The position numbers and the translations under genes are program-made. The notes under the pieces are model-generated. The model saw only the letters and a list, made by a program, of their open reading frames with translations, ran no database searches and was not told where the DNA came from. From Lachnospiraceae bacterium EP-SM-12S-S03 (GTDB taxonomy: Bacteria; Bacillota; Clostridia; Lachnospirales; Lachnospiraceae), in assembly GCA_020540725.1 (NCBI GenBank), contig JAJBSL010000018.1, positions 1-52,922 of the forward strand: DNA of 52,922 nucleotides. Reading direction: 5' to 3'. This document shows positions 29,857-40,942 of this stretch, in pieces (position 1 is the first letter of the stretch; the number at the start of each line of letters is the position of its first letter).

Positions 29857-31074
29857 ATGATAATTTGTGCCAAAACAATCATTACAGGAGACGGAGAGAT
29901 TGTGTTAAAAGACGCGGCGGTGATGGTGGATGGATCAGGAAAGATTCAGAAAGTCGGAGCGAAAGATGAAGTTGTACAGGCATATCCGCAGGAAGAAGTT
30001 ACAGACTATGGAGAGGCAACTATTTTTCCGGGAATGTTTGATATGCACTGCCACCTCGGATATTGGTATAGCCAGCCGGACAGCTTTAACTATAATGACC
30101 AGATGATTATGATGTACGCACTGCAACATGCGCAGGCTGCATTTACAAAAGGTATTACAAGTGTGCGTGATTGCTATTCTCCGGAAGGAGTATGCAAGAC
30201 TTTGAAGCTTGCAGAAGAGAAAGGATTTGTTACAATCCCGAGAATTACCCATGTAAATGCGGGAATGTGTATGACAGGAGGGCATTGTTGGGATGAAGTT
30301 ATTGAAGTGGACGGGCCATGGGCGATTCGAAAAGAAATTCGTCGTCAGGTAAGAGACGGAGCTGAGTGGGTGAAAATACTTACAAGCCATCGTTCACATA
30401 TTCCGGAGTATACACAGGAAGAATTGGATGCGGCGGTAGATGAGTGTCATAGAAGAGGAATCAAATGTGTGGTGCATGCAGGTACCCACCCATCCATTCA
30501 GATGTGTATCGATGCCGGTTTTGATACGATTGAGCATGGAACATTCCTTACGGTTGAACAGGCGCAGCAGATGAAAGAAAAAGGGATCGCATGGACACCG
30601 ACAATTATGGCATACACTTATCTGTATGAAGTGTGCAAGAAAAATATAGAAGAGGGAAATGCAGATGTATTCAATGATCCGGTAGCAGCAAAAGAACAGA
30701 GAGATTATGCATATTATGAGCCGGCTTACAAAGCATACAGAGACAACTTCAAGAAATTATATGATACAGGCGTTACAGTTTGTACAGGAAGTGATATGGT
30801 AATGTACGGTTCTCCGGTTCTTCCGGTTCAGCAGGAACTGAATTACATGGTAGAGTATGGAATTACTCCGGTTCAGGCAATTCAGACAGCAACTTCTAAT
30901 CCGGCAAAAGTACTTGGAAAAGAAAATGAACTGGGATTGATTCAGGAAGGATTCATTGGAGATATTGCTATCGTAGACGGCGACCTCAGTGAAGACATTA
31001 AAAATATCTATAATATTCATACTGTATATTTGAATGGAAAGAAAGTATACGATGAAGGGGTAAGATACGTATAA
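29857..31074 (+). CDS. Amidohydrolase family protein (imidazolonepropionase / Xaa-Pro dipeptidase-like)
   Basis: 405 residues of the metal-dependent amidohydrolase superfamily. The metal motif DMHCHLG lies near residue 62, the bridging-Lys position is EWVKILTS (about 169), metal His residues lie in VVHAGTH and IEHGTFL, and the catalytic Asp is in GSDMVMYG (about 308). Members hydrolyse cyclic amides or prolyl dipeptides, and the substrate here is not determinable. It stands 39 bp after the broken HD-GYP gene and ends in a hairpin. The gene itself is intact. Confidence 0.85.
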   Translation: MIICAKTIITGDGEIVLKDAAVMVDGSGKIQKVGAKDEVVQAYPQEEVTDYGEATIFPGMFDMHCHLGYWYSQPDSFNYNDQMIMMYALQHAQAAFTKGITSVRDCYSPEGVCKTLKLAEEKGFVTIPRITHVNAGMCMTGGHCWDEVIEVDGPWAIRKEIRRQVRDGAEWVKILTSHRSHIPEYTQEELDAAVDECHRRGIKCVVHAGTHPSIQMCIDAGFDTIEHGTFLTVEQAQQMKEKGIAWTPTIMAYTYLYEVCKKNIEEGNADVFNDPVAAKEQRDYAYYEPAYKAYRDNFKKLYDTGVTVCTGSDMVMYGSPVLPVQQELNYMVEYGITPVQAIQTATSNPAKVLGKENELGLIQEGFIGDIAIVDGDLSEDIKNIYNIHTVYLNGKKVYDEGVRYV

Positions 31075-31086
31075 AGATACATAGAA

Positions 31087-31121
31087 AAGGGATATTCTAA
31101 TTTAAATTTGGAATATCCCTT
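31087..31121 (+). terminator. Hairpin terminator after the amidohydrolase gene
   Basis: AAGGGATATTC (31087-31097) pairs with GAATATCCCTT (31111-31121), with an AT-rich palindromic loop. The T-run after it is weak (GATCACTTTT). Confidence 0.65.
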
Positions 31122-31139
31122 GATCACTTTTGAAACCAT

Positions 31140-31167
31140 TTGTAACTTTTTGTAACTGGTATATTAT
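31140..31167 (+). promoter_or_regulatory. Promoter of the symporter gene
   Basis: TTGTAA (31140-31145), a 16-bp spacer and TATTAT (31162-31167). A direct repeat, GTAACT, occurs twice in this stretch (31142-31147 and 31152-31157). Confidence 0.5.
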
Positions 31168-31229
31168 AGTTCTTCCAGATAAAAGTTCAATATAAAAAAC
31201 CATTGAACAACTAGGAAGGAGAGGCAATT

Positions 31230-32701
31230 ATGAATGGTTTTAATGAGGTGATTTTGGCAATCCAGGATCTGCTGGCAGGAAAGGTTCTGCTGGTTGTCCT
31301 TGTGGGAGCAGGGCTTTGGTTTACGTTTCAGACTGGTTTTGTACGATCAGAGAATTTGGAAATGGCTGGAAACGCTTGGCGGGAGGTCTTTTTGGAGGAA
31401 AGAAAAAAGGCGGAAAAAGTGAAGAAGGTGGTTTGTCTCCCTTTCAGGCTGTTACAACTGCGATTGCAGGACAGGTGGGTACAGGAAATATAGCAGGTGT
31501 TGCAACCGCAATTGCAGCAGGTGGACCGGGAGCTATTTTCTGGATGTGGGTATCCGCATTCTTGGGAATGGCAACAATTTTCTGTGAAGCAGTACTTGCT
31601 CAAGTCTATAGAAAAGAAGCAGAAGACGGCACATATGTGGGAGGCCCTGTATATTATATCAAGGCGGCGTTCAAAGGAACGTTTGGAAAGGTATTGGCAG
31701 CAATTTTTGCCATTCTTATTACATTGGCTTTGGGACTTTGTGGTAATGCCGTACAGGCAAACTCAATCAGTGATGCGTTCCATACGGCTTTCTTCAGTAA
31801 TTTTAATGCCGGTTTTGAACTGATGGGGCAGCATGTTACATGGGACAGACTGCTTTGCGGTATTTTGATCGCAGCTCTTGCATGGATTATTTTTGCAGGG
31901 GGTGTTAAGAGAATCGGTTCTGTTACAGAGAAACTCGTTCCGATCATGGCAATTTTTTACTTGATCGGTGGACTGATCATTGTTCTTGTGAACATTAAAG
32001 AAGTTCCATATGTATTTGTCATGATCTTCAAAGGTGCTTTCACACCGGAAGGAATTGCAGGTGGTATTTTTGGTATTTCCGTAAAAGAAGCAGTAAAACT
32101 TGGTATTGCAAGAGGATTGTTTAATAACGAGGCAGGTCTTGGTTCTACTCCGAATGCCCATGCGCAGGCGAGAGTTGATCATCCAGTACAGCAGGGACAG
32201 CTTGCAGTTGTATCTGTATTTATCTGTACAATGGTACTTACAACTTTAACAGCAATCGTTATTATCATTACAGGAATGTGTGAACCGGGATCTATCGGAC
32301 GCGACAGTTCCGGAGCGCTCTATCAAGGTGTGAAACTGACACAGATTGCGTTCAGTACTTTATATGGTAATTTCGGTAACATATTTATTGCGATTGCAAT
32401 GTTCTTCTTTGCATTTTCTACTGTACTTGGATGGTATTTTTACGGAGAGTCCAATGTGAGATACCTTTTTGGTAAAAAAGGTGTGAAACCGTATCTGATC
32501 GTTGTATGTGTGATCATTATTATTGGATCTCTTGTACAGGTAGAGACTGTATGGAATCTCGCGGACTGCTTTAACTCTTTGATGGTACTGCCGAATATTG
32601 TGGGCGTGCTTGCATTGACGGGAGTTGTGAAAAAGTATTATAAAGACTACAAAGAGAATTTCCTGCCGAACCATCCGGAGGATGTAGCAAGTAAAAAATA
32701 A
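31230..32701 (+). pseudogene. Sodium:alanine symporter (AGCS family), frameshifted near the N-terminus
   Basis: The ATG at 31230 has a GGAGAGG site and opens FNEVILAIQDLLAGK ... GLWFTFQTGFVR, a proper AGCS start, then falls out of frame. The rest continues in the -1 frame as REFGNGWKRLAGGLFGG and runs intact to 32701: SPFQAVTTAIAGQVGTGNIA, GGPGAIFWMW, NNEAGLGSTPNAHA and about ten membrane segments. One base is missing around 31342-31346; restoring it gives FVxIREFGNGWKR as in the family. Otherwise the gene looks healthy, so this is either a recent mutation or a sequence error. Confidence 0.8.
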
Positions 32702-32745
32702 TAAGGTGAGCTTTTCGCGGAGGTAAAGAAGTAGAGAAACAACCC

Positions 32746-32774
32746 GCATATTGACTTATTCCCCTGCATAAACT
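32746..32774 (+). promoter_or_regulatory. Sigma-E-type promoter of spoIIID
   Basis: GCATATT (32746-32752), a 14-bp spacer and CATAAACT (32767-32774) match the Bacillus sigma-E consensus KMATATT / CATACAHT except for one -10 base. spoIIID is a mother-cell sigma-E gene in known spore formers, so the match has biological support. Transcription would begin near 32781. Confidence 0.75.
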
Positions 32775-32796
32775 GTAAAAACAGTGAATGTAGGGG
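32761..32796 (+). promoter_or_regulatory. Hairpin masking the spoIIID ribosome site in read-through transcripts
   Basis: CCCCT-GCAT-AA-ACTGT (32761-32776) pairs with ACAGT-GA-ATGT-AGGGG (32781-32796). The 3' arm contains AGGGG of the spoIIID ribosome site. The 5' arm lies upstream of the predicted sigma-E start, so only longer transcripts from the symporter side could form it. Confidence 0.5.
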
Positions 32797-32802
32797 ATTT
32801 TT

Positions 32803-32946
32803 ATGAAAGATTATATCGAAGAGCGCGCGGTGGAGATTGCGAATTATATTATTGAGAATCAGGCGACAGTTCGGCAGACGGCAAAACAGTTTGGAGTGTC
32901 TAAGAGTACGATACATATGGATGTAACAAAAGAGATGGTTTTGTGA
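32803..32946 (+). pseudogene. spoIIID: spoIIID 5' part (codons 1-38) plus 9 element-encoded codons
   Basis: ATG 32803 with AGGGGA five bases upstream begins MKDYIEERAVEIANYIIEN and the helix-turn-helix TVRQTAKQFGVSKSTIH, a textbook SpoIIID N-terminus. After His38 (CAT 32914-32916) the reading frame enters the inserted element, adds MDVTKEMVL and stops at 32944-32946. The 47-residue product keeps most of the DNA-reading helix but lacks the basic C-terminal helix. The missing part is at 40763-40906. This is probably a split gene rather than a dead one: no lesion is seen in either half. Confidence 0.9.
32913..32931 (+). other. attL: left junction repeat
   Basis: ACATA-TG-GATGT-A-ACA-A-AA at 32913-32931 matches the right junction (40759-40777) at 15 of 19 positions. 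ACATA is the most likely crossover core, because joining there restores Lys39 of SpoIIID. Confidence 0.75.
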
Positions 32947-33044
32947 AGGTTGTTTATGAGGTGAGGTGAAGATAGGAAAAGGATATTGTATATAAGGAGT
33001 ATTTGGTTTTGGGATAAGTATTTACAGAATCAAATGTATGGTGC

Positions 33045-33070
33045 AAAAGCTCGGTGATGACCGGGCTTTT
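33045..33070 (+). terminator. Terminator just inside the left end of the element
   Basis: AAAAGCTCGGT (33045-33055) pairs over 11 bp with ACCGGGCTTTT (33060-33070) around GATG. It would stop transcripts that enter the element from the spoIIID promoter. Confidence 0.8.
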
Positions 33071-33168
33071 CATATGTGGAAATAAGTAAGAGTAGAAAAG
33101 TATGGTTGTGAGTGAAAATGTTGTAGTGAGTCTTTTATTTATAAGTGATATTTTGTTAGGAAGAATTG

Positions 33169-33177
33169 TGGTATAAT
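33169..33177 (+). promoter_or_regulatory. Extended -10 promoter for the first element genes
   Basis: TG-G-TATAAT (33169-33177) is an extended -10 element. The -35 region 17 bp upstream (TATTTT) is weak. It lies about 90 bp before the gene at 33267. Confidence 0.55.
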
Positions 33178-33266
33178 CTAATTGATTATTATCAGGTTTA
33201 GGTAGATAAATAAGATTTTTCGCAAATTCTACAAAGGATATTAAGAATAATATTGGGGGAGGGCCT

Positions 33267-34499
33267 ATGAGTGATATAATAAAATTTAATTCTGACAGAG
33301 AAATAGTTACAGAACAGAATGGTGAAATCGTAAGAGAATGCAATGATTTAGCCGAGATGACAGAAGAAATGTTGCTGGATGCACGAAAAGAAATTGCAAA
33401 TACTAAAACACTTAGTGTGCCGATTGCTGAACTGGCTTTATTAGGAACTGGAGTAGCGTCTTTAATCCCGGCTTTAAGGAAAGTAACACAAACAACAACA
33501 TTTAATACTCAGGGATTATATCAGCTTGCAAATGCAGGAGTAGGAGACACTTTAAAGATAGCAAAGAATGGCAATTTTTGGGGAGCATTCAAAACTGCAG
33601 ATGGGTCATCGAAATTTGCACAGCTTCAAGCGGCAGAGCCTCTTTCAACTACCAGTACTGCGGTAATGCCTATTGATCCGGCAACAATGATGATGGCAGT
33701 AGCGTTGTTTGCAATAGAGCAACAGTTAAAAGGTATAGAGGAAAAACAGAAGCAGATTCTGTCATTCCTTGAAATTGAGAAAGAATCAGAGACTGAAGCA
33801 GATGTAGAGATTCTGTCAAAGATGATTACTACATATAAGCATAATTGGAATAATGAGCATTTTATTGCAAGCAATCATAAGATGGTGTTGGATATTCAAA
33901 GAACAGCCAGAAAGAATATGCTTTCATATAAAAAGAAGGTTGCAGAACTACTAGATTCAAAAAAAATGATTGTTGCTCAGGCAAAAGTAAAATCAACTTT
34001 GAGCGATTTACAGAAGAAATTCAAATATTACAGATTGTCACTATATACTTTTTCTATGGCTTCATTGATTGAAATTATGCTTAGTGGTAATTTCAAAGAG
34101 GCATATATTTCTGAGATAAAGACAGAAATTAAGAAATTTTCATTGGAATACAGAGATTTATTTACAGAATGTTCCATGTATCTTGAGAAAATGGCTTCAG
34201 TATCTGTAGAAGCAAATGTTATGAAAGGTATTGGTATTGCAAGTAAGGCAGTAGGAAAGTTTATAGGAAGTATTCCAGTTGTAAAAGAAAAGCAAGTGGA
34301 CGAGTTCTTACAAGATGGAGGTGCACATTTGAAAGAAAATGCCCAGGATATGCAGAAGAATATATTAGAATCACTTGCAACCCTTCATAATCCGGGAACT
34401 GGTGTCTTTATGGACAAAATGGAGGATATGATTCGAATCTATAATCATACTGACAGAATTTGTTTTGATGATAAGAAGATCTATCTTATTGCAGGATAA
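33267..34499 (+). CDS. Element-encoded helical protein of unknown function
   Basis: 410 residues, not recognised. It has a polar N-terminus, two hydrophobic helices (about residues 50-68, PIAELALLGTGVASLIPAL, and about 134-152, DPATMMMAVALFAIEQQL), then a long helical, lysine- and glutamate-rich region with coiled-coil character (about 155-330). The two hydrophobic hairpin-like helices within a helical bundle are the kind of layout seen in some pore-forming or membrane-associating proteins, but no family can be claimed. It sits at the left, cargo-like end of the element and is followed closely by the GIY-YIG gene. Confidence 0.75.
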   Translation: MSDIIKFNSDREIVTEQNGEIVRECNDLAEMTEEMLLDARKEIANTKTLSVPIAELALLGTGVASLIPALRKVTQTTTFNTQGLYQLANAGVGDTLKIAKNGNFWGAFKTADGSSKFAQLQAAEPLSTTSTAVMPIDPATMMMAVALFAIEQQLKGIEEKQKQILSFLEIEKESETEADVEILSKMITTYKHNWNNEHFIASNHKMVLDIQRTARKNMLSYKKKVAELLDSKKMIVAQAKVKSTLSDLQKKFKYYRLSLYTFSMASLIEIMLSGNFKEAYISEIKTEIKKFSLEYRDLFTECSMYLEKMASVSVEANVMKGIGIASKAVGKFIGSIPVVKEKQVDEFLQDGGAHLKENAQDMQKNILESLATLHNPGTGVFMDKMEDMIRIYNHTDRICFDDKKIYLIAG

Positions 34500-34533
34500 G
34501 ATAAGGAGAAATTCGAACAAGAAGGAGCAAAAT

Positions 34534-35331
34534 GTGGAGAAGTTTTCAGAGAAAAGTTTATTATCGCTTGGAGACTATTATGTCTATGGTCTGATTGATC
34601 CTAGAAATAGGAAAATATTTTATATTGGCAAGGGAACCGGAAATCGGATTTTTGAACATGAATTGGAAAGTCAGGGAAATCCTGAGAGCGAAAAATCGAA
34701 GTTAAAGATGATAGCAGAGATTAAAGCAGCTGGTTTGGAAGTTGAAAAAGTTATGATTAACTGCAATCTGACAGAAGCGGAAGCATTTGCAGTAGAAGCG
34801 GCACTAATTAATGCGTTTAATTATGTTGAAGATACCTGTTTGACAAACATTGTTGCAGGACATCATTCGGTGGAGGCTTTGACAGTAGATGATTTTGAAA
34901 AGATATATGGAGCAGAAGAGTTACAGGAATCAGATATCCGACACAAGATAATGATTATCAAGATAAATAAACTTTATCAAAAAGGAATGACGGAAGAAGC
35001 TCTGTATGATTCGGTACGTGGTATTTGGCGAGCATCACTAGAACGCGTGAAGACAGTGGAATATGTTTTTGGGGTTTACAATTCGTTAATAGTTGCGGTA
35101 TATAAACCGACAACGTGGTATGTCTGTAAAGAAGCGTTAGAAAAGTTACCAAGTCATGTTACACAGTTGACTTCGAAAACGGAGAACAGAGTATTTTTTA
35201 TAGATGAAGGATTTGAGAATCACGGATTGTTGGATGAAGCAGGGAAGTTTTATTTGTATAAATCCATTGCTGGTTTGAAAGTAAATCAAAGCGCACAGAA
35301 TCCAATTACATATTTAGGAATTAAGGAATAG
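34534..35331 (+). CDS. GIY-YIG domain protein (LEM3-like)
   Basis: 265 residues. The N-terminal nuclease-type domain shows YYVYGLIDPRNRKIFYIGKG, so the GIY and YIG positions are YVYGL and FYIGKG, followed by the Arg in GNRIFEHE and a Glu in the LTEAEAFAVEAALI helix. This resembles the LEM3/ANKLE1-like GIY-YIG subgroup. The C-terminal half is not recognised. The best start is GTG 34534, six bases after AAGGAG; the longer open frame overlaps the preceding gene. Its TAG stop lies inside the left arm of a 15-bp inverted repeat. It could be a nuclease with a defence or element-maintenance role. Confidence 0.75.
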   Translation: MEKFSEKSLLSLGDYYVYGLIDPRNRKIFYIGKGTGNRIFEHELESQGNPESEKSKLKMIAEIKAAGLEVEKVMINCNLTEAEAFAVEAALINAFNYVEDTCLTNIVAGHHSVEALTVDDFEKIYGAEELQESDIRHKIMIIKINKLYQKGMTEEALYDSVRGIWRASLERVKTVEYVFGVYNSLIVAVYKPTTWYVCKEALEKLPSHVTQLTSKTENRVFFIDEGFENHGLLDEAGKFYLYKSIAGLKVNQSAQNPITYLGIKE

Positions 35332-35648
35332 AGCAAGATCCACTCCGGTATTACCATATTGCAATTATTTGCATATGGATACGTGGAGTAATCTTATTGT
35401 GGGGAACATCCCCATCCCCGTTGTTTGGCTTTCGCAGAGAAAAACAGAATATGATTTTACAGAGCATCTGACAGAAGTTGGGTGCTCTTATTTTGCCTCA
35501 AAAAGATGATTTCCACGAAGTGTTGCGATTACATTTGTAAAAGCCAAATAAAATATCAGGGTATGGGGAAATGTAATCCCCATCAAGAAGACATAGGTTT
35601 GGCATTGAGGAAATTCGATAATGTTAAACACAGGTGGATCTTGCTCTA
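35329..35648. repeat. 320-bp non-coding block bounded by 15-bp perfect inverted repeats
   Basis: TAGAGCAAGATCCAC (35329-35343) and GTGGATCTTGCTCTA (35634-35648) are exact reverse complements. Inside are further hairpins: GGGGAACATCCCC near 35401-35414, AGAGCA..TGCTCT near 35461-35493, and ATGGGG..CCCCAT near 35554-35582. No believable gene is inside. It could be a MITE, a replication origin for the RepA gene downstream, or a transfer origin. No target duplication is obvious. Confidence 0.65.
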
Positions 35649-35828
35649 GTGAAAAACAATGAAAAATGCATTTCAAATTTGGTTAAAATATATAAAAAAT
35701 ATTTTTTGGAGGAAATTACCCTGTAAAATGCCGTTTCGTCCTTTCGTTATATAGAAGGGGAAATATCAAAAGTGAAAATTTTTGATTTAATAAAACTCTT
35801 CTAAACAAAGCAGAGGAGGTACAGATGC
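35649..35828. other. Spacer before the replication genes
   Basis: AT-rich, no gene seen. It ends with AGGAGG at 35814-35819, nine bases before the RepA-like start. Being next to an initiator gene, it could contain part of an origin, but no iterons are evident to the eye. Confidence 0.4.
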
Positions 35829-36398
35829 ATGAAATTTTCTTATATGAAAGAAAGTGAAGAACAAATCCAATATTATCAGTTTCCTAAAATATTATTAAGA
35901 ATGAAATTGAGCCAAAATGCTCGGATTATTTACATGCTTTTATATGATCGTTCCAGGATTTCTCAAAAGAATAAATGGTTGGATGAAGAAAAACGAGTAT
36001 TTGCTATATTTCCGCTTGATAAGTTATCGAAAGAATCTGGGATTTGTCAAACATCTACGAAGAAAGCGTTGAAGGAGTTATCGGAGAATGGATTATTAAT
36101 TCGTAAATCTGTTGGATTTTCGAAACCAAAGCATTTATATGTTCTTCTTCCTGATGAAGAGTCTTATATAAGAGGCGAAAATGAGACGGATGAGAATAAG
36201 GCTGCCATAAAGTCTGAATCCCAACTTTCAGATAGTCGAGATGATGACTGTATGAAAGTCGCAAAAGAGGCATCTAGTAAAGTAATAGAAAAAGAAAATA
36301 TAAATAATAACAATAGAGTAATTGGCGGAAAGGGAAAACGGAAGAAAGAATACTCGAAGGAAGTGGATTATTCTTGCGAGGAAGGTGAAAGTTTATGA
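35829..36398 (+). CDS. Replication initiator protein A (RepA_N family)
   Basis: 189 residues. The N-terminal domain has the RepA_N pattern: YYQFPKILLRMKLSQNARII, YMLLYDRSRIS, KNKWLDEEKRVFAIF and then STKKALKELSENGLLIRK, a winged-helix. RepA_N proteins start replication of Firmicute plasmids and are common in integrative elements. The C-terminal half is low-complexity and polar. AGGAGG nine bases upstream sets the start. The stop overlaps the DnaC-like start by 4 bp, so the two are translated together. Confidence 0.85.
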   Translation: MKFSYMKESEEQIQYYQFPKILLRMKLSQNARIIYMLLYDRSRISQKNKWLDEEKRVFAIFPLDKLSKESGICQTSTKKALKELSENGLLIRKSVGFSKPKHLYVLLPDEESYIRGENETDENKAAIKSESQLSDSRDDDCMKVAKEASSKVIEKENINNNNRVIGGKGKRKKEYSKEVDYSCEEGESL

Positions 36399-37186
36399 TG
36401 AATGAGAAGAGTACATTTTTAGGAGAAGATGGATTGATTTATTGCTCTGTTTGCAAAGAATCCAAGGAGGCTTTTTATCCATCAGACTTTCTGTTTGGAT
36501 TGAAAAAACATCCAAGGCAATGTGCGTGTGACAGAAAAGAACGAGAAGAAATGGAAAGATATTTTAGAGAAAAAGAACGAAAACAGTTGATTGAGCGAAA
36601 TCGGAAAAATTGCTTTGAGGAACTGGAAATGCTTCAGTGCACATTTCAGAATTCAACGGAAGATAATTTTGCATTTCAAACAGCGAAGAAGTATGTTTCA
36701 AATTGGAAAGAAATGAAGAAAAAACGAATGGGTTATTTGCTATGGGGACCGGTTGGAACTGGAAAAAGTTATTTGGCGAGGTGTGTCGCAAATGCTTTAT
36801 TGGATTGCGGGGTAACCGTGAAGATGATGAATTTCAGCGGGATTCTAAATGATCTATTTGCTGCTGAAGATAAGACGGAATATATAAGATGCCTGATGAA
36901 ATATGATCTTTTAATAATTGATGATCTTGGAGCAGAACGAAATAGCGAATATGCTACTGAAATTGTATTTAGTGTAGTAGATGCCAGGTATCGCTCAGGG
37001 AAACCATTAATTATAACGACAAACTTATCGTTGGTGAAAATGAAATCAGAGACAGATGCAGGAAAATGTCGGATTTATGATCGGATATTGGAAATGTGTG
37101 TTCCGATGAAAATGGATGGCGATAGTAAAAGAGAAAAACTTGCGACGAATAAAATGCACGACATGAAAGAAATTTTGAATCTATAG
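36395..37186 (+). CDS. DnaC/IstB-like ATP-binding protein (helicase loader type)
   Basis: 263 residues. The N-terminus has a cysteine cluster CSVCKE ... CACDRKE that may bind zinc. The AAA+ domain shows Walker A GPVGTGKS (about residues 123-130), Walker B LLIIDDLGAE (about 170-179) and sensor 1 PLIITTNLS. DnaC-like loaders bring the replicative helicase to an initiator-opened origin. The coupled RepA-like gene just upstream supports this role over the transposase-helper IstB role, and no IstA is present. Confidence 0.87.
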   Translation: MMNEKSTFLGEDGLIYCSVCKESKEAFYPSDFLFGLKKHPRQCACDRKEREEMERYFREKERKQLIERNRKNCFEELEMLQCTFQNSTEDNFAFQTAKKYVSNWKEMKKKRMGYLLWGPVGTGKSYLARCVANALLDCGVTVKMMNFSGILNDLFAAEDKTEYIRCLMKYDLLIIDDLGAERNSEYATEIVFSVVDARYRSGKPLIITTNLSLVKMKSETDAGKCRIYDRILEMCVPMKMDGDSKREKLATNKMHDMKEILNL

Positions 37187-37253
37187 GACTATTTATTCAG
37201 AAAAATTCATAGACATGGACAAAGAGTACAGGAAGAGAGGTAGTTTGTTTATC

Positions 37254-37436
37254 GTGGCAAGAAAAAAATTGAACTATCGGTTTCATAATCCGAATACGGT
37301 AGAAACTACCGCCGATTACATATTGAAGGTTTTTATGGAAGTGAATGAAAAGAAGGTGGAGCGGGCAATGCAGGAGGCGGCCGAGAATGTTTGGGAAGAA
37401 AATGACTATGGCGAAAAACGAGAGATTTTGGACTAG
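37254..37436 (+). CDS. Small conserved element protein
   Basis: 60 residues from GTG 37254, or 73 from ATG 37215. The core ARKKLNYRFHNPNTVETTAD is well conserved in small proteins of Firmicute integrative elements, many of which start at the first residue of that block, so the later start is favoured. The upstream ATG has no ribosome site; the GTG has AGAGG at a long distance of about 13 bases. Function unknown. It follows the DnaC-like gene by about 70 bp. Confidence 0.6.
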   Translation: MARKKLNYRFHNPNTVETTADYILKVFMEVNEKKVERAMQEAAENVWEENDYGEKREILD

Positions 37437-37533
37437 AAGTCCACTTGTGCTGTTGGAAAAAACAAGGTAAAATTAGGTGCAGATACTAATATAAAAGTTA
37501 TGGTTACATTTTTAAATGGGATGGTGCTTTATT

Positions 37534-39027
37534 GTGAGAAAAGAATTTGATATTTCACAGTTCGATAAATATAGAGAAGATAACAGAAGAGAAGTGAAGA
37601 AAGCAAACGGAGGATTGCCGGTTTCGTTATGGGACACATATTCTTCTTTTGCAAACTGTTATGGCGGTGTCATTATTTTAGGGATTAAAGAGGAAAAAGA
37701 TGGAAGTTGGCGAACAACTGGATTGCAAAATGAATCGAAATTGCGTAAAGATTTTTGGGATACGATTAATAATCCGAAGAAAGTAAACCTCAATTTATTA
37801 ACGGATGACGATATAGAGACCTATACAATAGGTGAAAGAAAAGATGTCATCATGGTGATATATGTTCCTATGGCAAAGAGAGAGCAAAAGCCGATTTATA
37901 TTAATAATGATATTTTTAACGGAACGTTCCGTAGAAACTATGAAGGAGATTACCATTGTACCAGATTGCAAGTAAAAGCAATGCTTCGCGATCAGACAGA
38001 GAGAACGATGGACATGGAGATTTTGGACAAGGTTCCTATGGAAGATTTGAATTATGATACAATTCATGGGTATCGTAACAGCCATAGAACTTTGAAGGAA
38101 GGGCATCCTTTTGAACGACTGAACGATCATGAGTATTTAAGAAGTATTGGAGCGGCAGCTGTTTCTGAAGAAGATGGGAAATTGCATCCAACAGCAGCGG
38201 GTATGCTTATGTTTGGAAATGAATATGATATTGTGCGGCATTTTCCGGAGTACTTCTTGGATTATAGAGAAGAAATGGATTCTGCAATTCGTTGGACTGA
38301 CAGATTACAATCCAGTTCAGGCGAGTGGTCGGGTAATGTTTGTGATTTTTATTTCAGAGTTTATAATAAGATAATCAAGGATATCAAAGTACCGTTTAAA
38401 ATGGTCGGAGGAGAACGTGTGGACGATACGCCGGTTCATAAAGCACTCCGCGAGGCTTTGGCAAATTGTTTGATTAATGCGGATTATCATGGTGTTCGAG
38501 GTGTGGTAATCAGGAAAGAGACGGATAAAATTACTTTTGCAAATCCAGGCTATGTCCGAACCGGTAAAAAACAGATGCGTTTAGGCGGAGAATCTGATCC
38601 GCGGAATAAATCTCTCATGAAAATGTTTAACTTGATTAATATAGGTGAACGTGCCGGAAGTGGAGTCCCGAATATTTTCAATGTATGGAATGATGAAGGA
38701 TTTGTTGAACCAGAGATAGAAGAAAGATTCGATCCGGACAGAACAATTTTGACGCTTTCTTTTGCGAAAAAAGCGACGAAAAAAAGCGACGAAAAAAAAG
38801 CGACGAAAAAAAGCGACGGAAAAAGAGTGACGAAAAAGCGACAAGAGCAGTATGAAAAAATCCTTACTTTTATGCAGCCTGATGTATGGTACAAAGCAAG
38901 TGATTTAATGAATGTGTTGGGAGTGAAAGAAACAAGAACAAAAGAATTGTTGCGAGCGTTAATTATTGCTGAAAAACTTGTAGATGACGGAGCAACAAAA
39001 GGAAAACGATATAAAAGAGTCGATTAA
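37534..39027 (+). CDS. AlbA_2 (Schlafen-type) DNA-binding / ATP-binding regulator
   Basis: About 497 residues from GTG 37534; an ATG at 37516 is possible but lacks a ribosome site. The N-terminal AlbA_2 domain includes LPVSLWDTYSSFANCYGGVI and ILGIKEEKDGSW. The middle has a GHKL-like ATPase segment with HKALREALANCLINADYHG and GERAGSGVPNIF. A Lys/Thr/Ser-rich linker with three 9-residue repeats joins a C-terminal winged helix (WYKASDLMNVLG). Such proteins are frequent on mobile elements and are taken for regulators, sometimes linked to defence. It lies before the recombinase gene and could control it. Confidence 0.8.
   Translation: MRKEFDISQFDKYREDNRREVKKANGGLPVSLWDTYSSFANCYGGVIILGIKEEKDGSWRTTGLQNESKLRKDFWDTINNPKKVNLNLLTDDDIETYTIGERKDVIMVIYVPMAKREQKPIYINNDIFNGTFRRNYEGDYHCTRLQVKAMLRDQTERTMDMEILDKVPMEDLNYDTIHGYRNSHRTLKEGHPFERLNDHEYLRSIGAAAVSEEDGKLHPTAAGMLMFGNEYDIVRHFPEYFLDYREEMDSAIRWTDRLQSSSGEWSGNVCDFYFRVYNKIIKDIKVPFKMVGGERVDDTPVHKALREALANCLINADYHGVRGVVIRKETDKITFANPGYVRTGKKQMRLGGESDPRNKSLMKMFNLINIGERAGSGVPNIFNVWNDEGFVEPEIEERFDPDRTILTLSFAKKATKKSDEKKATKKSDGKRVTKKRQEQYEKILTFMQPDVWYKASDLMNVLGVKETRTKELLRALIIAEKLVDDGATKGKRYKRVD
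38764..38843 (+). repeat. In-frame tandem repeat with poly-A runs in the AlbA_2 regulator
   Basis: Three 27-bp units encode KKATKKSDE, KKATKKSDG and KRVTKKRQE. The units contain A-runs of 7-8, prone to slippage, so copy number or frame may vary between strains. Confidence 0.75.
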
Positions 39028-39122
39028 TATAATTAGATAAAATTTTATTCGAGGTTATTCAAGAATTTATCCAAACTTAGGCAAGGTATTATTGAGTTTA
39101 TCAGTAATATCTTGTTTTTCTG

Positions 39123-39150
39123 TTTACGAATCTTTATTTTGATATATAAT
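39123..39150 (+). promoter_or_regulatory. Promoter of the serine recombinase gene
   Basis: TTTACG (39123-39128), a 16-bp spacer and TATAAT (39145-39150), about 45 bp before the ATG. It looks like a sigma-A promoter. No sigma-E match was found here. Confidence 0.55.
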
Positions 39151-39153
39151 ATA

Positions 39154-39165
39154 GATGTAACAGAA
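39154..39165 (+). promoter_or_regulatory. Att-like site at the recombinase transcription start
   Basis: GATGTAACAGAA matches attL GATGTAACAAAA (32920-32931) and attR GATGTTACAGAA (40766-40777) at 11 of 12 positions each. It lies where transcription from the promoter above should begin, so the recombinase may bind it and limit its own expression. Inference only. Confidence 0.45.
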
Positions 39166-39194
39166 AAGGAATTTGATACAGAAAGGATAATCCT

Positions 39195-40748
39195 ATGAAG
39201 ATAGCAGCCTATTGTCGTGTTTCTACCGATAAAGCCGATCAGCTCAACAGTTTAGAATCCCAAAAGGAATTTTTCTCCGAATATACGCAGCGTACCGGAG
39301 ATGTTTTAGTGAAATTATATGCAGATGAAGGGATTTCCGGAACAAAAATCAAAAATCGTAAAGAATTTCTTCGTATGATGTCCGATGCAGAAAAGGGAAT
39401 GTTTGATATGGTCGTTGTAAAGGATATTTCTCGTTTTGCCAGAAATACCGTAGATCTTTTACAGAATGTTCGTAAGTTGAAAGCCTTAGGTATAGAGACA
39501 CAATTCCTTACAGCGAATATGACGAGCATGGGAAACAGTGAGTTTGTTCTTACTATTTTTGGTGCGTTGGCTCAGGAAGAAAGCGCTAATACATCTAAGC
39601 GAGTGAAATTTGGAAAGAAACTGAATGCAGAAAAGGGACGAGTTCCTAATATTGTGTACGGTTATGATAAAACGATCGGGGATTATTTTAACCTTGAGAT
39701 TAACAAAGAAGAATCAAAGGTTGTCAAACAAATTTACAAGTGGTACACAGAAGAAGGTTACGGTGCTGCCAAGATTTCTAATATGCTGAATGAAAAGGGG
39801 TATCGAACAAAGCGAAATTGCAAGTGGAGTCAGAATGCAATTTGCCGGATTCTGACGAATGAGATTTATACCGGGAAGATTATCAATGGAAAACAGGAAA
39901 TCAGCGATTTTCTGACCGGGCAGAGAAGAGAGAAAGATGAAACGGAATGGCTTGTTGTGGAACGTCCGGAACTTCGAATTATTGAAGATGAAGTATTTGA
40001 AAATGCACAGGAAATTCTTCATGGAAGAAACGATGCTTTTAACCTGAATCATGAACGTCAAAGCAACAAATATTTGTTTTCTACATTGATTAAATGTAAA
40101 GAATGTGGTTGGTCGTTTAGAAGAACGGTCCGCACTTACAAAAATACGTATGTGCGTTGGGTTTGCTCTGGAAGAAACGGAAAAGGAGCAGATAGCTGTC
40201 CAAATAAAACTGTCGTGGATGAAGAGGAATTAATCCAGGTTTTACAGGGATATTTCAATCGGATTCTACAGCAAAAAAATAAAGTGATTGACTATGTAGT
40301 GAAAGAATTTCAAAGAGTGTACAAAGCAAAAGATGAAAATGCAGAGTACGAAAAGGAATTAAACTTACAAGTTGCCAGATTACAGAGAATGAGACAGAAA
40401 TACATGGATATGTACACCGATGATTTGATTTCCAGAGAAGAATTGAATGATAAAGTAGGTGGCACACGGCAAGAATTGGAGCGTCTGGAAAATGAGTTGA
40501 AAATGGTATCCAGCAATTTGACAAAGGGGGATCAGATGGAAAAAATTCTAAACGATACCTTTAAGCAGATTGAGGATATTACCGATGTTCATGAAATGAC
40601 TAATGTGCAGTTAAAGCGACTAATCAAGAAAATCGAAGTGGACAAGGATGGAAATGTGGATATTTACCTTCGTTTGTTAGGTGATTTGGGATTAAATGAA
40701 AGTATTTTAGTGGCAGATGAATGTGAAAATCGAAAAAACTCTAAATAG
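39195..40748 (+). CDS. Large serine recombinase
   Basis: 517 residues. The resolvase domain opens MKIAAYCRVSTDKADQLNS, with the nucleophile Ser10, and continues with DEGISGTKIKNRKEF and VVVKDISRFARNTVDLL. A recombinase domain follows (YGYDKTIGDYFNLEI to the NGKQEISDF region), then a zinc ribbon (CKECGWSF ... CSGRNGKGADSC) and a coiled coil near residues 395-440. This is the architecture of phage integrases and of SpoIVCA, the sigK-skin recombinase. AAAGGA seven bases upstream sets the start. The stop is 10 bp from the right junction core, as expected of the enzyme that excises the element. Confidence 0.95.
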   Translation: MKIAAYCRVSTDKADQLNSLESQKEFFSEYTQRTGDVLVKLYADEGISGTKIKNRKEFLRMMSDAEKGMFDMVVVKDISRFARNTVDLLQNVRKLKALGIETQFLTANMTSMGNSEFVLTIFGALAQEESANTSKRVKFGKKLNAEKGRVPNIVYGYDKTIGDYFNLEINKEESKVVKQIYKWYTEEGYGAAKISNMLNEKGYRTKRNCKWSQNAICRILTNEIYTGKIINGKQEISDFLTGQRREKDETEWLVVERPELRIIEDEVFENAQEILHGRNDAFNLNHERQSNKYLFSTLIKCKECGWSFRRTVRTYKNTYVRWVCSGRNGKGADSCPNKTVVDEEELIQVLQGYFNRILQQKNKVIDYVVKEFQRVYKAKDENAEYEKELNLQVARLQRMRQKYMDMYTDDLISREELNDKVGGTRQELERLENELKMVSSNLTKGDQMEKILNDTFKQIEDITDVHEMTNVQLKRLIKKIEVDKDGNVDIYLRLLGDLGLNESILVADECENRKNSK

Positions 40749-40758
40749 TAACGACCAA

Positions 40759-40777
40759 ACATAAAGATGTTACAGAA
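40759..40777 (+). other. attR: right junction repeat
   Basis: ACATA-AA-GATGT-T-ACA-G-AA at 40759-40777, the right-hand copy of the junction repeat. From AAA at 40763 onward it is SpoIIID coding sequence (KDVTE). Confidence 0.75.
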
Positions 40778-40906
40778 CGTTTGCAACAAATCAATCCACC
40801 ACTTGCAGGTCAGGCAAGAAAAGTACTTGATATGAATAAAGCAGAGCGCCATATAAGAGGCGGAATGGCAACGCGAGAAAAATATTTACATCAACATGAA
40901 TGTTAA
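40760..40906 (+). pseudogene. spoIIID: spoIIID 3' part (codons 39-85)
   Basis: In the frame beginning CAT 40760 the sequence reads HKDVTERLQQINPPLAGQ, then ARKVLDMNKAERHIRGGMA and TREKYLHQHEC, with a TAA at 40904-40906. This is the complete C-terminal half of SpoIIID, including the basic helix region AERHIRGG that contributes to DNA binding. It has no start codon or ribosome site of its own, so it is silent unless the element is removed. Joined to codons 1-38 it gives an 85-residue protein of normal SpoIIID length. The sequence shows no decay. Confidence 0.92.
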
Positions 40907-40908
40907 GG

Positions 40909-40942
40909 AAAAAGAATCTGTCCAGGAGGGCAGATTCTTTTT
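40909..40942 (+). terminator. Terminator of spoIIID
   Basis: AAAGAATCTGTCC (40911-40923) pairs with GGGCAGATTCTTT (40928-40940) and is followed by TT. It stands 4 bp after the spoIIID stop, so the native transcription unit ends here. Confidence 0.85.

Follow-up and report, generated by a model that had tools for sequence, protein, structure and literature searches.

Why would a gene for a sporulation regulator be kept in two pieces, each of them intact? On contig JAJBSL010000018.1 of Lachnospiraceae bacterium EP-SM-12S-S03 (assembly GCA_020540725.1), analysed over a stretch of 52,922 nucleotides hereafter called the window, the gene spoIIID is divided by an element that carries a large serine recombinase, and the question raised by this locus is whether spoIIID is broken or awaits repair. 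We conclude, with a probability of roughly 0.83, that the 7,846-bp element separates codon 38 of spoIIID from codon 39 and would be excised precisely, and in the mother cell only, once sigma-E induces a small directionality factor encoded by the element itself.

A spoIIID gene in two halves

The locus comprises the following features:

32803–32916, + strand: N half of spoIIID, codons 1–38 (TIGR02844 positions 1–37 of 80; Pfam SpoIIID likewise)
32917–40762, + strand: spoIIID-intervening element, 7,846 bp (delimited by joint comparison)
39195–40748, + strand: large serine recombinase, 517 amino acids (PF00239, PF07508, PF13408)
40763–40906, + strand: C half of spoIIID, codons 39–85 and stop (40763–40903 matches TIGR02844 positions 38–79; Pfam SpoIIID likewise)

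Neither half contains a stop, and joining them yields 85 residues (38+47) in frame; an initial annotation, made from the letters of the window, had described the split, its lesion-free halves, the size of the element and the in-frame product in these same terms. The tetranucleotide ACAT stands directly before the element start and recurs as the last bases of the element. The recombinase reading frame stops 14 bp from the right joint, which corrects the 10 bp first given, and the terminator claimed for the second half can be recognised by eye at about 40913–40942 but was not listed by a simple terminator scan. Compared with 397 family genomes, the left flank (29857–32916) gave best DNA matches of 77–78%, over its first gene, and was found whole on one contig in no genome among the matches listed.

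Scanning species genomes with a recombinase alignment confirmed 105 relatives, from which the best 80 were kept. In 76 of these 80 loci the recombinase adjoins the same spoIIID half: tblastn with the two halves placed the C half at most about 170 bp past the recombinase match in 75 loci (and the N half inside the fetched flank in 16), while reading of the tails recovered one further joint, interrupted by the contig end, in L024, and a contig that stops at the joint in L058. The C-half loci include Blautia massiliensis GD8, B. glucerasea, B. schinkii, [Ruminococcus] torques ATCC 27756, Schaedlerella arabinosiphila (DSM 106076, L027, with an element of 5.3 kb), Extibacter muris (DSM 28560, L052), Agathobaculum butyriciproducens, Flavonifractor sp. 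An82 and Angelakisella massiliensis. Dozens of other species, mostly from the gut, have spoIIID interrupted at the same codon.

Spare copies of the gene are rare. A TIGR02844 search of the 80 genomes found a whole spoIIID above cut-off in two (G014 and G058), a near-whole one (positions 5–79) together with a C half on another contig in G068, and no spoIIID match in two; the remainder had N-type and/or C-type halves, and weak matches to other helix-turn-helix proteins were obtained besides. Both halves lie on one contig in 37 of the 80. All such pairs among the first 50 genomes, which amount to 26 genomes, form with the window the set of 27 complete elements used below. The halves end at the identical nucleotide in 27 of 27, with (G/A)TACAT leading up to the element and ACAT closing it before AARGAY; the sequence departs from this in L128 and L139, where one side has ACAC, and in L142, which reads ATGGAT past the joint. 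These elements range from 3,818 to 19,387 bp, pairs outside the set reaching about 35 kb, and every one of the 27 joined products holds 80 open codons. Because the same joint recurs in all 27, the split is not a chance event. The median NG86 ratio of nonsynonymous to synonymous substitution (dN/dS) is 0.10 for the N half (168 of 351 pairs usable) and 0.11 for the C half (97 of 351), indicating that purifying selection acts on both. With in-frame rejoining throughout, selection on both halves and only 3 of the 80 genomes having spoIIID whole or nearly so, the skin-like intervening element initially proposed is supported as far as sequence allows.

Among 150 genomes drawn evenly from the family of the search-centre genome G003, taken as Lachnospiraceae, 102 had spoIIID matches, namely 89 whole genes, nine with two halves only (G003 being one of the nine) and four other partial matches. 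In agreement with the initial annotation, which knew of no described case, no report of an interrupted spoIIID was found among the matches listed by searches of full-text literature, whose coverage leaves out subscription papers and bioRxiv; spoIIID is also absent from the main text of a large recombinase survey (PMC10083194; text search).

In L160, L161, L146 and L075, additional spoIIID N or C halves lie close to the element or to what remains of it, which suggests tandem insertion, decay or repair; L161 has a fragment of a recombinase directly 5' of a whole spoIIID.

Attachment sites and horizontal spread

32913–32942, + strand: attachment site attL, core ACAT (32913–32916) and left element arm (position the same in 27 of 27; arm dyad)
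40733–40782, + strand: attachment site attR, right element arm, core ACAT (40759–40762) and attB right arm formed by the codons KDVTER (joint and dyad)

The recombinase is a single long protein with resolvase, Recombinase and zinc-ribbon domains, and matches a PHROG integrase at 1.8e-114. The element ends are inverted repeats, forming the arm dyad of attP, at p<0.01 in 24 of the 27 elements. These arms read GTNAY-N5-AGAACG with at most one mismatch in 21 (left) and 18 (right) of 27, the window having two mismatches on the left and three on the right. The right arm of attB, made of the KDVTER codons, is GTNACNGAACG, with at most two mismatches in 20 of 27 and a 5-bp shift relative to attP; the left arm gave no motif match in the 27 elements (3–6 mismatches). 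The same offset between attP and attB is found in the large serine integrases of A118 type, which are not a sporulation system: for the Listeria integrase, PMC3783163 describes, from modelling and tests, a zinc-domain motif lying 5 bp nearer the centre in the attB half-site than in attP.

Going beyond the initial annotation, this family is widespread and horizontally mobile. Identities of recombinase and spoIIID are uncorrelated (rho 0.09 over 351 pairs), L119 and L120 for instance having 98.9% of recombinase residues in common and 75.8% of spoIIID nucleotides; the family therefore spreads horizontally, landing in the same codon across species. An ancient, vertically inherited element is ruled out by the same 351 pairs. 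In the 150-genome sample, the recombinase was detected at E<=1e-120 in seven genomes, six of the nine with split spoIIID plus G097. The latter holds, besides a paralogue of SpoIIID that is whole but divergent (58% identity), a spoIIID interrupted by a recombinase of 48% identity, so spoIIID has been struck by more than one recombinase lineage. The paralogue (L159:17333-17875) directly adjoins the split spoIIID of that genome.

The tails of the best 120 listed recombinase homologues were compared past the attachment site in a fixed register, with shuffles. Sixty-six of the 120 run into spoIIID in shifted frame (p<0.01), 33 stop at the attachment site and are compatible with spoIIID, and six continue into the left end of the element, that is, a circle or tandem joint; 13 match neither spoIIID nor attP and two were unparsed. 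Some of the 13 probably represent other insertion sites, and one of them, P0017, runs into a copy of the small protein described below. Plasmid records gave no match, and an Rfam scan of five small-element loci found nothing.

A small protein as candidate directionality factor

Open reading frames of at least 45 amino acids, taken from the window element and eight small elements, were compared by tblastn with all 27. Two sense genes occur in every one of the 27, that of the recombinase and that of a small protein absent from the initial annotation; this small protein is probably the control point of the element. The features concerned are:

37254–37436, + strand: small protein, predicted recombination directionality factor (RDF), 60 amino acids from GTG (longer reading 37215–37436)
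37187–37215, + strand: sigma-E-like promoter of the small gene, GACTATT-N14-CATAGACA (best-site spacing 14 in 28 of 28)
32746–32774, + strand: sigma-E-type promoter of spoIIID, GCATATT-N14-CATAAACT (layout recurs in 23 of 27 loci)
39123–39150, + strand: sigma-A-type promoter-like site of the recombinase, TTTACG-16-TATAAT (alignment; pattern scan)
39153–39165, + strand: half-site resembling attB, inside the recombinase promoter, AGATGTAACAGAA (p=0.04 in the window, p<0.05 in 21 of the 27)

The small protein carries the motif KLNYRxHNPNT in its alignment, and its AlphaFold model consists of two helices (mean pLDDT 77); compared with solved structures, the protein itself gave no credible match. 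A profile built from such proteins detected no copy outside the element in the 26 carrier genomes, G037 having two copies inside its element; other copies adjoin the recombinase in G048 and lie on another contig in G014. In the family sample it occurs in five of 150 genomes, all within the nine with split spoIIID (the match in G141 being partial), and is missing from all 89 that have spoIIID whole. From this co-occurrence and the promoter evidence below, we read it as the putative excision (directionality) factor. In L127, L130, L131, L132 and L135, the small reading frame lacks ATG, GTG and TTG at the position expected for a start behind its ribosome site, and may begin with ATC.

A conserved block, typically GGACTATTT followed by TTCATAG and then AT, precedes the 28 small reading frames. 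Scored with a sigma-E consensus that we take to be KMATATT and CATACAAT, the small gene reaches a mean of 11.18 (n=28), as against 12.0 for spoIIID (27), 9.4 for spoIVA (25), 5.3 for the recombinase (27) and 6.15 for random element pieces (54). Individually significant sites were obtained for spoIIID in 19 of 27 loci, for the recombinase in 1 of 27 and for random pieces in 4 of 54. The sigma-E-type promoter that the initial annotation placed before the first half of spoIIID is borne out, and 23 of the 27 loci supplied spoIIID promoters for a trained matrix. Sigma-E control of the recombinase itself was ruled out (0 of 27 with the trained matrix, 1 of 27 with the assumed consensus), as was, by eye, a coding role for the conserved ATGGACAAAG found 5' of the small gene, its frame being stopped in L119. 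The sigma-A-type site of the recombinase draws its support from the alignment, such sites numbering 20 in the region against 28 expected by shuffling. The half-site within this promoter has the spacing of attB, not attP, in the window and its equivalents, and is possibly an autoregulatory site for the recombinase.

The hosts retain sporulation genes. Sigma-E/sigma-K-type genes are present in all 26 carriers searched, with two uninterrupted matches in 25; the sigma-K cut-off was passed in six carriers, and which match is sigma-K is presumed. SpoIVA is likewise present in 26 of 26, whole and over cut-off in 25 and split in G047. Together these genes argue against non-sporulating relics, without proving sporulation. 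In the remaining carrier, G011, in which spoIIID is split too, one whole sigma-E/sigma-K-type match is accompanied by a sigma-K-type gene in two pieces on separate contigs (L157 and L158); the reading frames listed nearby include no recombinase, and this is either a split gene or an assembly break. In Pseudoflavonifractor sp. Marseille-P3106 (the L047 genome), the spoIVA pieces (L155:1031-1492 and L156:6986-8038) lie about 252 kb apart on the same contig and strand, a 644-amino-acid serine recombinase-like reading frame (L156:5187-7121) overlaps the start of the spoIVA C part, and holin- and lysin-like reading frames were recognised by eye 3' of the N part in L155; spoIVA may here be interrupted by a very large prophage.

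Starting from the observed architecture, joint, conservation, gene linkage, attachment-site geometry and promoter-like sequences, we infer the activity of the small protein, its sigma-E dependence, the timing of excision and its restriction to the mother cell. The recombinase, made from its sigma-A-type promoter, would integrate attP into the KDVTER codons and, without the small protein, would be unable to excise. Once active in the mother cell, sigma-E would drive transcription of spoIIID and of the small gene alike, whereupon recombinase and small protein would join attL to attR, restoring spoIIID and releasing a circle that would be lost together with the mother cell. The forespore, lacking sigma-E, would keep the element, so that the germ line stays interrupted. 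Since SpoIIID would require two sigma-E-driven events, the SpoIIID step ahead of sigma-K would be delayed; restored SpoIIID would then act on late genes including sigK.

Cargo, rival explanations and known sporulation elements

Between the left joint and the recombinase, the window element carries the following cargo around the small gene:

33267–34499, + strand: 410-amino-acid protein of unknown family (no Pfam, PADLOC or PHROGs match)
34465–35331, + strand: GIY-YIG protein resembling phage-defence PD-T4-3 (PF22945 2e-15; PADLOC PD-T4-3 2.2e-41)
35829–36398, + strand: RepA_N/DnaD-like replication protein (PF06970 6e-14; PHROG 7882 1.1e-20)
36395–37186, + strand: DnaC-like helicase loader (NF005992 6.7e-81; PHROG 50 6.8e-56)
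37516–39027, + strand: Schlafen/AlbA_2 protein (PF04326, PF13749; PHROG 12156)

Several family members carry phage-defence-like genes, as judged from their predicted proteins: PADLOC identified AbiLi and AbiLii (RloB) proteins in L123 and L132, AbiLi in L127 and a methyl-directed restriction enzyme in L136, with no match for the AAA-ATPase/PD-(D/E)XK protein of L143 among the eight proteins scanned, and an RloB-like protein was found by tblastn in 8 of the 27 elements. No phage structural family was found among the seven proteins of the window element (Pfam, NCBIfam, PHROGs), and no structural phage gene was noticed in the reading-frame lists of five small elements, some of whose proteins were searched with Pfam. 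Four viral contigs of 50–119 kb (L081-L084) encode a 69–71% identical recombinase followed by an attP-like dyad (18–19 of 26 positions), three of the four dyads sharing one sequence and the fourth having a GCAT core; these might be temperate phages integrating in spoIIID.

Several other explanations of the locus were weighed against developmentally controlled excision. It is improbable that this is a plain site-specific mobile element, with spoIIID as its attB, which inactivates the gene where sporulation is lost or dispensable and leaves by random or transfer-associated excision only. Frequent transfer, as read from the rho of 0.09, fits such an element, as do a defence-like cargo that suggests selection for the element, the related phage contigs with their attP-like dyad and the minority of homologues at other sites; yet a dead spoIIID should decay, whereas its halves are free of lesions in 27 of 27 with dN/dS near 0.1, the carriers have kept sigma-E/sigma-K-type genes and SpoIVA, and a sigma-E-like promoter is conserved before the small gene. 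A defective or satellite prophage, timed by phage induction instead of sporulation, seems very improbable: the four viral contigs and the replication-type genes of the window element point that way, and the lack of structural families in the proteins and lists searched points away. Unlikely too, but deserving more weight, is constitutive low-level excision without developmental control, giving a mixed population in which the cells with restored spoIIID sporulate, as for yin in yabG, whose excised forms are described as present at all time points (PMC10747680). It would agree with the sigma-A-type look of the recombinase promoter and with the circle-type tails of 6 of 120 homologues; against it stands the layout before the gene of the small protein that probably sets direction, where all 28 cases show a CATAG element with a spacing of 14 to a block resembling a -35.

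A number of observations count against excision gated by sigma-E and the small protein. Excision is predicted, and the six circle-type tails, an indirect sign of it, might be tandem copies, one of them lying on a 72.9-kb contig; a strict attP pattern had no match among the loci searched with it. The sigma-E site of the small gene is individually significant in only 14 of 28 cases with the assumed consensus (spoIVA, 7 of 25) and in only 12 of 28 with the matrix trained on 23 spoIIID promoters, and the 28 promoters are related sequences and hence non-independent tests. Four of the nine split-spoIIID genomes in the family sample miss the small protein, and three of the nine have no recombinase at E<=1e-120. 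At 3 of the 80 loci (L014, L038 and L048) the recombinase sits at other sites, the TIGR02844 search giving no spoIIID match in G038 and G048 and a whole copy in G014; together with the 13 other tails of 120, these loci make spoIIID a non-exclusive target. Horizontal mobility means that upkeep of the element could be selfish. Finally, as sporulation of a C. difficile spoIIID mutant is described as less severely affected than that of sigE or sigK mutants (PMC5025042), the gate may be partial.

Spores are the form in which many gut anaerobes move from host to host. With spoIIID present only as two halves in nine of the 102 spoIIID-bearing family genomes, species of this kind could be annotated as spoIIID-negative and yet may well sporulate. 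We regard it as reasonably probable that a phage-defence-carrying family, spreading horizontally, has made spoIIID its standard home in many Clostridia, uses sigma-E as its exit signal in the mother cell only, and turns SpoIIID into a rearrangement checkpoint ahead of sigma-K. If so, programmed DNA rearrangement in sporulation would be common and mobile in Clostridia, a rearrangement gate could sit above sigma-K, and defence islands would be able to live at little cost within an important developmental gene. The family supplies sets of integrase, candidate RDF and attachment sites.

The closest known counterpart is skinCd of Clostridioides difficile, in which, according to PMC5025042, the recombinase CD1231 is expressed from a sigma-A promoter and the 72-residue RDF CD1234 under sigma-E, with a further need for SpoIIID. 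The spoIIID element resembles it in a serine recombinase with a sigma-A-type promoter, in a candidate RDF behind a sigma-E-like promoter and in the predicted in-frame restoration of a mother-cell regulator gene. The target of skinCd is sigK, whereas here it is spoIIID, one step earlier; a need of the RDF for SpoIIID would be circular in a spoIIID element, and nearly all carriers of the latter (25 of 26) have two uninterrupted sigma-E/sigma-K-type genes. The skin of Bacillus subtilis similarly has a mother-cell transcription factor gene, sigK, rebuilt by a recombinase, SpoIVCA, and differs by its gene and its 48 kb (PMC3416734). In Bacillus cereus, gin is a non-prophage element in gerE, a short mother-cell transcription factor gene like spoIIID (PMC5595907), but another gene and later in the cascade. 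The interrupted targets listed in PMC10747680 are sigK, spsM, spoVFB and gerE, plus yabG; SP-beta (spsM), vfbin (spoVFB) and yin (yabG, Clostridium botulinum) likewise split sporulation genes, though other ones. In that account yin is unique to one strain, whereas the family described here adjoins spoIIID in 76 of 80 loci.

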